This document shows positions 466-14,868 of a stretch of 34,502 nt of DNA, piece by piece. The translations under genes were made by a program, and so were the position numbers. This stretch comes from Actinomycetota bacterium. Lineage in GTDB: Bacteria; Actinomycetota; Humimicrobiia; Humimicrobiales; Humimicrobiaceae. The stretch is from the NCBI GenBank assembly GCA_004376325.1, contig SOKC01000021.1, forward strand, positions 1 through 34,502, in the 5' to 3' direction. The notes beneath the pieces are model-generated. The model saw nothing but the letters and a program-made list of their open reading frames with translations. It was not told the DNA's origin and made no database searches. Position 1 is the first letter of the stretch; every line of letters starts with the position of its first letter.

Positions 466-990
466 ATGGCTAAAAAAGTACTGTTACTGATAGAAAACGA
501 ATTCAGGGATGAAGAGGTAATCTATCCATATTACAGGTTTAAAGAAGCCGGTTATGATGTAAAAGTTGTAGGCCCGGAAGCAGACAAAGAGTATAAGGGT
601 AAATTTGGGGTGGTCTTTAAATCAGACCTTTCTGCTTCACAGATCAGTTTAGATGATGTAGTTGCATTAATTATTCCCGGCGGAAACGCACCTGATAAAA
701 TGAGGATTCAAAAGAATATGGTTGACCTGGTTAAAAGAGCTTCCCACCAGCAAAAGATTATTGCAGCAATATGTCATGGTGGATTGATGCTGGTTGAAGC
801 CGATATAGTCAGGAACAGGAAAGTTACCGGTTACAGGTCAATAGCTACAGATCTTAAAAATGCCGGGGGGCAGTATCTGGATAAAGAAGTTGTGGTTGAT
901 GGTAACCTGGTAACCTCCAGAATTCCTGATGACCTTCCTGCATTCTGCAGGTCAACTCTGGAGCTGATAGAGACTTACAATAAAAAATAA
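466..990 (+). CDS. DJ-1/PfpI family protein (type 1 glutamine amidotransferase-like)
   Basis: Nucleophile elbow AAICHGG; VVVDGNLVTSRIPDDLPAFC is typical of the PfpI subfamily; SD aaaggag upstream. Confidence 0.9.
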   Translation: MAKKVLLLIENEFRDEEVIYPYYRFKEAGYDVKVVGPEADKEYKGKFGVVFKSDLSASQISLDDVVALIIPGGNAPDKMRIQKNMVDLVKRASHQQKIIAAICHGGLMLVEADIVRNRKVTGYRSIATDLKNAGGQYLDKEVVVDGNLVTSRIPDDLPAFCRSTLELIETYNKK

Positions 991-11868: not shown

Positions 11869-12906
11869 TTAGGTTGTAATATTATATTTTATACCTTTCT
11901 GCTGACCCATGAGCTCCAGCGCACTTACCAGTTTTTCAAGGGGCATATCAGCAGTTATAAATTTAACAGTATCAATCTGCCTCGAGGTTATTAGGTCAAA
12001 TGCCTTTTTTACATAGTAAGGAGTATGATGGTATACTCCTTTTATAGTAAGCTCTGAGTAATGCAGTAGCTGAGTATCTATATTTACTGATGTACCTGAG
12101 ACACATCCACCAAATAAGTTAATGGTAGCTCCTTTTCTACCCATAAGGATAGTCATCTCCCATACTTCGGGGATTCCGGTAGCGTCAACTGCTACATCTA
12201 CTCCTTTTTTATCTTCAGTTAGCTCTTTTACTGCAGCAACCTGATCAGATTCTTTTGATGCATTAATGGTGTAATCAGCGCCAAAATCCTTAGCATATTC
12301 TAACCTTTCATCTGATAAGTCCACTGATATTACAAGTGCGCCTTTTAGCCTGGCTAGAGCAATAAACATAAGTCCAATAGGTCCTGCGCCGTTAATCACC
12401 ACCATATCATCAGTTTTAATATTGGACTCTTCTATGCCATGCGCCACACAAGCCAGTGGTTCCAACAGCGCAGCTTCCCTGTAATCTATTTTATCTGGTA
12501 TTATATATGTATTTTTTTTCAATATTTTTCCTGGTATCTTTATATACTCTGCATAGGCACCATTATTGTATATCAGATTCTCGCAAAGAGAGTATCTTTC
12601 AAGTTTACAGTAATAACATTCATAACAGGGAACACTATTTACTGCCACTATTCTATCGCCTACTTTGAAATTATCCACGTCACTACCTATTTCTACAATA
12701 TCGCCAGCCCATTCATGGCCAAAAACTGAAGCTTCTTTTATCATAGTAGGATGACCTCTTCTATATGTCTTTAGGTCTGAACCACAGGTAAGGGCACTTT
12801 TTATTTTAACCAGTGCTTCATCATCCCCTATCTCAGGTATATTTATATTTTCATATCTTACATCTTCAGGTCCGTAAAATAACTGAGCTTTCATTTTACC
12901 TTTCAT
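11869..12906 (-). CDS. Zinc-dependent MDR alcohol/polyol dehydrogenase (paralogue of the preceding gene)
   Basis: LTCGSDLKTYRRGHP, FGHEWAGDIVEIG, CYECYYCKLERYSLC, INGAGPIGLMFIALA. Start at 12906 or 12894. Confidence 0.88.
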   Translation of the reverse strand: MKGKMKAQLFYGPEDVRYENINIPEIGDDEALVKIKSALTCGSDLKTYRRGHPTMIKEASVFGHEWAGDIVEIGSDVDNFKVGDRIVAVNSVPCYECYYCKLERYSLCENLIYNNGAYAEYIKIPGKILKKNTYIIPDKIDYREAALLEPLACVAHGIEESNIKTDDMVVINGAGPIGLMFIALARLKGALVISVDLSDERLEYAKDFGADYTINASKESDQVAAVKELTEDKKGVDVAVDATGIPEVWEMTILMGRKGATINLFGGCVSGTSVNIDTQLLHYSELTIKGVYHHTPYYVKKAFDLITSRQIDTVKFITADMPLEKLVSALELMGQQKGIKYNITT

Positions 12907-12907
12907 C

Positions 12908-13087
12908 TTAAAAACATGGCTCGGAGACCCTTTCCGTAAGGGAGGGGAGGAGAGCCATCCTCCTTTCTATAAGTAAAGTTTTAGCACTTTCTAAAAGTTT
13001 TAGTTGACTGTATTTTACTGAAGCAGATAATTTTTCTCCAGTAAGCATTCTAATTGTGTATGTATTTCTTTCTTTTAACTTCTGCAT
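12908..13087 (-). CDS. Small 59-aa ORF of unknown function (possible leader ORF, or fortuitous within a palindromic element)
   Basis: Reading the minus strand: MQKLKERNTYTIRMLTGEKLSASVKYSQLKLLESAKTLLIERRMALLPSLTERVSEPCF*; AGGAGG 10 nt upstream (13098-13103); TAA ends 1 nt before the ATG of the downstream dehydrogenase (TAAGATG). Below the cutoff of the supplied ORF list. Confidence 0.3.
   Translation of the reverse strand: MQKLKERNTYTIRMLTGEKLSASVKYSQLKLLESAKTLLIERRMALLPSLTERVSEPCF
12916..12958. repeat. Nested hairpin ATGGCTC(12916-12922)/GAGCCAT(12952-12958) with inner CCCTT(12928-12932)/AAGGG(12938-12942)
   Basis: Perfect 7-bp outer and 5-bp inner inverted repeats read directly from sequence. 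Confidence 0.75.
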
Positions 13088-13103
13088 AGTTCTTATGCCT
13101 CCT

Positions 13104-13161
13104 AGTCAACCAGAGACTTTATTCAAGCCTCTTCCTTTAGGGAGAAGTAGTTGACTTGAAT
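13104..13161. repeat. Interleaved inverted repeats AGTCAAC(13104-13110)/GTTGACT(13150-13156) and ATTCAAG(13121-13127)/CTTGAAT(13155-13161)
   Basis: Both pairs are perfect 7-bp matches; arms interleave (pseudoknot topology or mutually exclusive) and share 2 nt. Confidence 0.75.
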
Positions 13162-13172
13162 ATGTTACTTAA

Positions 13173-13200
13173 ATATTACAGAAAGAATTTACCCAGTCAA
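13173..13200 (-). promoter_or_regulatory. Candidate promoter TTGACT-16-TAATAT
   Basis: Minus strand TTGACTGGGTAAATTCTTTCTGTAATAT; -35 at 13200-13195, -10 at 13178-13173; predicted start ~13166, just before the palindromic segment. Confidence 0.4.
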
Positions 13201-14117: not shown

Positions 14118-14537
14118 TCAAAATTCATCAAGGCTTTTAATAAAATCAAAATTACTTTTATTTTTCAGTATTTCTTTATCTTCCGTCAGAAGTAGAGCCT
14201 GCTCACTTATGGCCACAGAAATATAAAGAGAATCATAGAATGTTAATTTAGTTCTATCCGCTATATTAATTGATGTATCAATAATTTTTTTATTTGAGAA
14301 GATCACTTTCATGTTCATAAGATGTAAACTTTCTGAAGCTGAGTATATATCATCCACATTTAAGTATTTTTTACTAAGTAAGGTATTTATAATTTCGAAA
14401 AAGAATAGATCCGGCACAATAATTTCTATTTCATTTTGAAATTGTTGTTGCAATAATTTATTTGCCAGATCAGTGTTGCTTTCATTCTCATATCTGAACC
14501 ACTTCACTCCAATTGAAGCATCCAATACAATTTTCAT
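14118..14537 (-). CDS. PIN domain ribonuclease toxin (VapC-like)
   Basis: Acidic residues of the PIN fold: MKIVLDASIGVKWF, FFFEIINTL, LTFYDSLYISVA, LLLTEDKEIL; preceded by an RHH gene overlapping by 4 nt. Confidence 0.88.
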   Translation of the reverse strand: MKIVLDASIGVKWFRYENESNTDLANKLLQQQFQNEIEIIVPDLFFFEIINTLLSKKYLNVDDIYSASESLHLMNMKVIFSNKKIIDTSINIADRTKLTFYDSLYISVAISEQALLLTEDKEILKNKSNFDFIKSLDEF

Positions 14538-14821
14538 TTCTTCTTTAAATTCCTATCTCTCCATTCCCTTATTTCTTCTACAGCACTCTTTCCAGAAGGA
14601 AAATTCTTACTTTTAGCGCGAAGCTGCTCTTGTATTTTTATTGCCCGCTCAATATCTTTTCTCCTTTGCTCTTTTTTCTTCAGTTCTTTTATACTGGCAA
14701 TATATTGAGCAGTTGCTTCTCTAATTAACTGGCTTTTACCCATCTTCTCCGTTGCACAAAATTCATTAATCTCTTTGAGATTTTTTTCAGGGATAGTTAT
14801 ATTTATTCTCTTTACGCTCAT
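14534..14821 (-). CDS. Ribbon-helix-helix antitoxin (VapB/CopG-like); ORF track extends to 14851
   Basis: MSVKRINITIPEKNLKEINEFCATEKMGKSQLIREATAQYIASIKE is an RHH pattern; start assigned to the second Met at 14821. Confidence 0.85.
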   Translation of the reverse strand: MSVKRINITIPEKNLKEINEFCATEKMGKSQLIREATAQYIASIKELKKKEQRRKDIERAIKIQEQLRAKSKNFPSGKSAVEEIREWRDRNLKKK

Positions 14822-14823
14822 TT

Positions 14824-14846
14824 TATACTCACCATAAGTAAGTATA
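14824..14846. promoter_or_regulatory. Candidate autoregulatory operator: TATACTCAC-CATAA-GTAAGTATA
   Basis: Near-perfect 9-bp inverted repeat (8/9) overlapping the candidate -10 (14846-14841). Confidence 0.5.
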
Positions 14847-14868
14847 AACAATACATATTAAATGTCAA
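14841..14868 (-). promoter_or_regulatory. Candidate TA promoter TTGACA-16-TATACT
   Basis: Minus strand TTGACATTTAATATGTATTGTTTATACT, -35 at 14868-14863, -10 at 14846-14841; predicted start about 13 nt before the antitoxin ATG. Confidence 0.55.

Follow-up and report, generated by a model that had tools for sequence, protein, structure and literature searches.

A probable IscB (HEARO) relic at the start codon of an alcohol dehydrogenase gene from an Actinomycetota bacterium

The 34,502-nt stretch of DNA analysed here (the window) carries a palindrome-rich segment in front of a dehydrogenase gene, which raises the question of what the segment is, on which strand it reads and how it came to lie there. 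In the preliminary description, it was placed at 12911-13161 and taken for a short non-autonomous relic of the IS200/IS605 superfamily with an omegaRNA-type end. All of the motifs quoted were present, i.e., ATTCAAG...CTTGAAT at 13122-13161, GCATAGTTCTTATGC at 13084-13098, AGTTGACT at 13002-13009 and the distal hairpin arms ATGGCTC (12916-12922) and GAGCCAT (12952-12958). The assignment itself was borne out by homology to intact IscB elements, with the boundaries shifted slightly to 12907-13157 (the left boundary being ambiguous by 2 nt). The relic occupies the minus strand from 13157 to 12907, approximately 251 bp, and runs from the 5' half of a HEARO/IscB omegaRNA, through an in-frame loss of approximately 421 codons, to the last 48 IscB codons and the right end. 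In this order, the features of the locus are as follows.

13173-13200, minus strand: sigma70-like promoter TTGACT-N16-TAATAT, just upstream of the element (promoter scan and conservation)
13158-13172, minus strand: host leader retained upstream of the left end, in the position of an IscB omegaRNA guide (aligned with empty sites; guide role putative)
13055-13157, minus strand: left end, the 5' half of a HEARO/omegaRNA (Rfam HEARO match; 94% identity over 103 bp to G006:C158)
12908-13087, minus strand: 59-codon remnant ORF, the first 11 and last 48 IscB codons joined by an in-frame internal deletion (BLASTP and frame reading)
12907-12972, minus strand: right end, consisting of AAAGGAGG (Shine-Dalgarno sequence, SD), the ATGGCTC...GAGCCAT hairpin and GTTTTTAAG, flush with the start codon (covariance model and fold)
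11869-12906, minus strand: zinc-type alcohol dehydrogenase gene with an ATGA start, the leader of which is the element (Pfam ADH_N and ADH_zinc_N)

The left end starts with AAGTCAACTACTTCTCCCTAAAGGAAGAGGCTTGAATAAAGTCTCTGGTTGACTAGGAGGCATAAGAACTATGCAGAAG and contains a GTCAAC...GUUGAC stem, two inner hairpins and a GCATA hairpin. In the Infernal/Rfam comparison that the preliminary description had proposed, the HEARO covariance model (RF02033) aligned with 13155-13075 of the minus strand at 31.2 bits and an E-value of 8.7e-5. Owing to the loss of roughly half of the RNA, this score lies below the curated HEARO gathering score of 83, and a scan of the window at Rfam gathering thresholds returned nothing. 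The HEARO of the intact element in a congener (G006:C158) scored 121 bits, and the E-value for the window together with 94% identity to that RNA indicates descent from HEARO. Weak Rfam matches unrelated to HEARO (rliE, IS009 and SAM-II) were discarded as chance. Predicted folding energies were -25.2 kcal/mol for the left end (minus strand, 13160-13075; z -2.2, with 3 of 200 shuffles equally good) and -20.9 kcal/mol for the right end (minus strand, 12965-12907; z -1.6). These folds are only moderately above chance, and their significance comes from homology.

Contrary to the earlier statement that the segment lacks a nuclease ORF, the 59-codon frame read from 13087 to 12908 holds the last 48 codons of IscB. 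This ORF starts at the same ATG as the IscB of G006 (MQKLKERNTYT) and then jumps to the IscB C-terminus IRMLTGEKLSASVKYSQLKLLESAKTLLIERRMALLPSLTERVSEPCF, where BLASTP identities were 59% to the G006 protein (E 6e-12) and 65% to that of G036:C70 (E 8e-17). The loss, reckoned against G006, retained the frame, and the TAA stop lies one nucleotide before the dehydrogenase ATG. An ORF bearing RuvC and HNH was not present, and since only the last 48 IscB codons remain, the segment is classed as a relic rather than as a functional member of HEARO/IscB. Judged from sequence, it is a non-autonomous IscB relic, neither a TnpB right end nor a complete omegaRNA.

DNA matches to the segment were noted in relatives (best E-value 7e-40). 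The left end most resembled G006:C158 and the right end G036:C70 (80% identity over 134 bp), both of which are intact elements at other genes. Further copies were thus found in relatives, at other genes. In the window's own genome (G000), a draft assembly of 140 contigs, the element was found only once; an intact HEARO with a 466-aa IscB ORF was found there on contig C80. A distant blastn comparison of the element with a plasmid collection gave no match, and the exact left-end string was absent from viral contigs. Y1 transposase (PF01797) was present in congeners and also, beside an IscB, in G036:C100, and a PF01797 search of G000 gave no match.

Several other loci with IscB-related ends were noted along the way. 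The intact element on C80 (L067, oriented minus, 1760-1820) adjoins the start of a dnaE-like gene, which in G005 has a T8 run and an open frame and in G000 a T7 run, a shifted frame and only a short fragment. In L058 and L064 (G038:C54 and G039:C78), an IscB right end appears to enter the middle of a DNA polymerase III alpha-like gene, and these are possible split genes. Four G035 contigs (C31, C88, C15 and C5; L070, L071, L072 and L073) carry mini-elements of approximately 280 bp with a HEARO-like left hairpin, a right-end hairpin and no ORF, all below Rfam detection; one adjoins the lepA start codon, another is found where a miaA-like reading frame begins, and they look like stand-alone omegaRNA elements. 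Lastly, a remnant of approximately 55 bp in L074 (about 740-810, minus strand; G001:C255), in which half of a left-end hairpin is joined to half of a right end, lies directly before the start codon of a prephenate-dehydrogenase-like gene.

The history of the insertion was examined by a comparison of dehydrogenase leaders. Orthologues in six congeners showed 75-97% DNA identity (the G006 copy being split over contigs), and none of the six carried the element at the orthologous site, which is the presence/absence pattern of a mobile element. The right end of the relic is flanked by ATGA without target duplication, in the manner of HEARO/IscB insertions next to ATGA/GTGA. The promoter hexamers were recognisable in all six element-free leaders (slightly altered in G005 and G002) at about 60-90 bp before the dehydrogenase ATG; in the window, the element begins about 20 bp downstream of the promoter, with approximately 15 nt separating it from the -10 box. 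The window has lost about 39 bp of leader, the native SD region among them, and the right end touches the dehydrogenase ATG, in agreement with the earlier view of the segment as the 5' leader of this gene. The left flank retained in the window, ATATTCAA, has ATGA after it in the empty site of G006 (G003 reads ATATCCAAATGA and G004 ATATTCGAATGA), and ATGA comes next in the empty sites of G003 and G004 as well. This is as expected if the element first inserted at the ATGA 39 bp upstream and the 39 bp between the two ATGA were then lost; alternatively, insertion at the start codon may have come first and loss of the leader afterwards. A model match, copies in relatives and element-free leaders were found where the preliminary description had named their absence as evidence against its reading. 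Elsewhere in the window (14118-14851, minus strand), a gene pair for a PIN-domain toxin-like and a ribbon-helix-helix antitoxin-like protein was noted beside a TauE gene.

The homology and orientation of the segment, its deletion and the empty sites, together with the promoter context, the fixed right-end position and the conserved hairpin, make it very probable that it began as an IscB (HEARO) element, a member of the IS200/IS605 superfamily, which inserted in gene orientation downstream of the dehydrogenase promoter and ahead of the coding sequence, shrank to approximately 251 bp by in-frame deletion and replaced the native leader with its right end at the start codon.

The right end was compared with others by means of a covariance model built from ten right ends. 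The window matched this model at an E-value of 1.3e-15, which is partly circular, the window itself being among the sequences used to build it. A further 27 places in four genomes of genus g17 matched at E<1e-3, and every one of the 27 matches that were read at this threshold, the window included, lay at the ATG of an ORF (27/27), in front of approximately 14 unrelated genes. These were abrB-like, iron-dependent-repressor-like regulator, EF-G homologue, iPGM, tadE, gltX, rfbA-like, rpmH, trigger factor (tig), gatC, cobO, amidase and enolase (eno) genes and the dehydrogenase of the window. Most identities were confirmed with Pfam; the ORF in G038:C71, of which 7 codons remain before the contig stops, was counted through its identity to the gatC copy. 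IscB parts were present only at the abrB copy and in the window among the matches read. Solo right ends in the related genus g17 stand before a dozen genes, mostly housekeeping ones. Weak model matches in G011, G019 and G031 (E 0.015-0.04) had no start codon there and were discarded. A right-end pattern with gaps capped at 30 was too short for the hairpin and did not recover even the window.

The right end carries, in order, an SD, a hairpin, a spacer and AUG(A), so that the hairpin shortens an SD-AUG spacing of approximately 50 nt to approximately 12 nt. The 53 nt of linear distance in the window become 12 nt across the hairpin, with a 9-nt spacer after it, and linear spacings of 49-62 nt among these right ends correspond to effective spacings mostly of 7-15 nt (mean z of the folded SD-to-AUG stretch, -2.9). 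In the stem arms, aligned by hand with iPGM, cobO and eno excluded for differing arm length or register, four pairs were changed on both sides, 88% of cells were paired and no shuffle reached the covariation score. A short SD-masking helix suggested by an RNAalifold alignment was rejected, since the sequence-based alignment misplaces the arms and folds of single sequences show the long bridging hairpin. An RNAfold prediction of the whole right end showed weak pairing between the SD and the U-rich spacer, which could mask some of the SD.

Right ends were also compared across phyla. With one genome scanned per species, 80 IscB loci were recovered, spread over archaea and many phyla of bacteria. 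The ATGA/GTGA of the right end could be placed by rule for 52 of them; it opened an ORF of at least 60 codons in 31 of the 52, compared with 27% of other such tetramers (p 1e-6). Ten of the ORFs were checked with Pfam and proved to be real genes, nearly all with a domain matched from profile position 1-3 near the N-terminus and one, an ATP-grasp protein, with a complete domain further in. The TGA stop of IscB often lies within an ATGA whose ATG opens the host gene. The order SD-hairpin-[AG]TGA was found at 22 of 51 right ends as against 3.1% of control sites (p 4e-20), and SD enrichment given a hairpin had an odds ratio of 13. IscB right ends in many phyla adjoin ATGA/GTGA, mostly, by this estimate, the start codon of a gene on the same strand, a pattern beyond the scope of the preliminary description. 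The figure is an estimate because some junctions are misplaced by the rule, and copies in Clostridia often lie off starts.

These results bear on whether the SD-hairpin-AUG leader might instead be a cis-regulatory RNA family of the host that IscB elements merely captured. Its place before many housekeeping genes of g17 with no left end nearby, and the compensatory changes in its stem, would suit such a family. Yet the same right end accompanies IscB at different genes and in different families (the window, G036:C70 and G143, a member of another family of the same phylum in which the IscB right end is flush with a flavoprotein-like gene start), and IscB elements from archaea and from other phyla show the architecture as well. 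Moreover, at rfbA, tig, tadE, gatC and cobO the module is present in some species and replaced by a plain leader in others, so it was gained or lost. A host origin of the leader is accordingly considered unlikely.

A second possibility is that the relic still works as a stand-alone omegaRNA guiding the IscB of C80 in trans. The 5' half of the scaffold and the leader in the guide position behind the promoter are intact, and the genome has an IscB ORF that could serve. Against this, approximately 103 of 220 nt of scaffold are kept and approximately 117 nt are missing relative to G006, so that the structured scaffold posited in the preliminary description survives in part and not as a whole, and the resident omegaRNA is only 68% identical. 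Such activity in trans seems very improbable, and the omegaRNA portion has probably lost its function as a guide RNA.

Orientation had been left undecided earlier between a TnpB-like element on the plus strand and a HEARO-like one on the minus strand. The HEARO match and the IscB remnant ORF settle it as the latter, and a TnpB-type right end or reRNA relic is highly improbable: the hairpins that appear on the plus strand too, as in any palindromic element, come with no Rfam match of note, whereas the homologues, read on the minus strand, carry IscB and not TnpB, and what is encoded upstream of the right end, where a reRNA would have TnpB, is the C-terminus of IscB. That the palindromes arose by chance in an ordinary AT-rich leader, for which fold z-scores of only -1.6 to -2.2 might speak, can practically be dismissed given the homology to intact elements at the covariance-model, DNA and protein levels and the six empty sites.

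IscB is a relative of the ancestors of Cas9. HEARO/IscB elements are already known, and the window element derives from this known kind by deletion. It shares with HEARO (RF02033)/IscB OMEGA systems the 5' omegaRNA half, an ORF that starts inside the RNA, the IscB C-terminus, a right-end hairpin and an ATGA flank, and differs in its internal deletion, truncated scaffold, lack of an intact nuclease and lack of a Y1 match in the genome. Like MITE-like non-autonomous IS200/IS605 derivatives, it retains both ends and has lost the coding region; unlike them, it derives from IscB rather than TnpB/TnpA, is single-copy and has its right end in the translation start of a gene. A hairpin between SD and AUG is known from phage T4 genes 38 and 25, where it shortens the spacing from 22 to 5 nt and from 27 to 11 nt (PMC3014915). 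The anatomy of the window right end fits this arrangement, a structural likeness, whereas here the module is a transposon end before many unrelated genes. A literature search that covered work other than the original HEARO and ISC descriptions found no link of the flank to start codons and no right end described as a ribosome-binding module.

By this account, a single mRNA would be made from the host promoter, starting with approximately 15 nt of leader and continuing through the truncated omegaRNA and the remnant ORF into the dehydrogenase. Initiation at the dehydrogenase might use AAAGGAGG of the element, the hairpin bringing the SD to within approximately 12 nt of the AUG, or might be coupled to the remnant ORF, whose stop lies one nucleotide before the AUG. 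The host leader would occupy the guide position, the guide of IscB omegaRNAs being 5' of the scaffold (PMC9640706).

Selection may have favoured right ends at start codons, and from sequence comparison we infer that right ends may act as portable translation-start modules. The 2009 HEARO paper reportedly noted the ATGA/GTGA flank of these elements. The present account offers a reason for this target motif: since ATGA/GTGA is a common coupled stop/start and Met-Lys start, an element that inserts there and brings its own SD could leave translation of the target gene in place. The account further outlines a route from transposon ends to ribosome-binding sites of core genes (rpmH, gatC, gltX, tig and the EF-G homologue) and makes the promoter and guide source for omegaRNA expression directly testable. 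With about even confidence, we propose that IscB/HEARO right ends are portable initiation modules (SD, bridging hairpin, spacer and AUGA) that may let elements lodge between promoter and start codon, even of essential genes, without silencing them, borrowing the host promoter for the omegaRNA and the host leader as guide, and that after decay of the element they may become domesticated ribosome-binding sites of many housekeeping genes.
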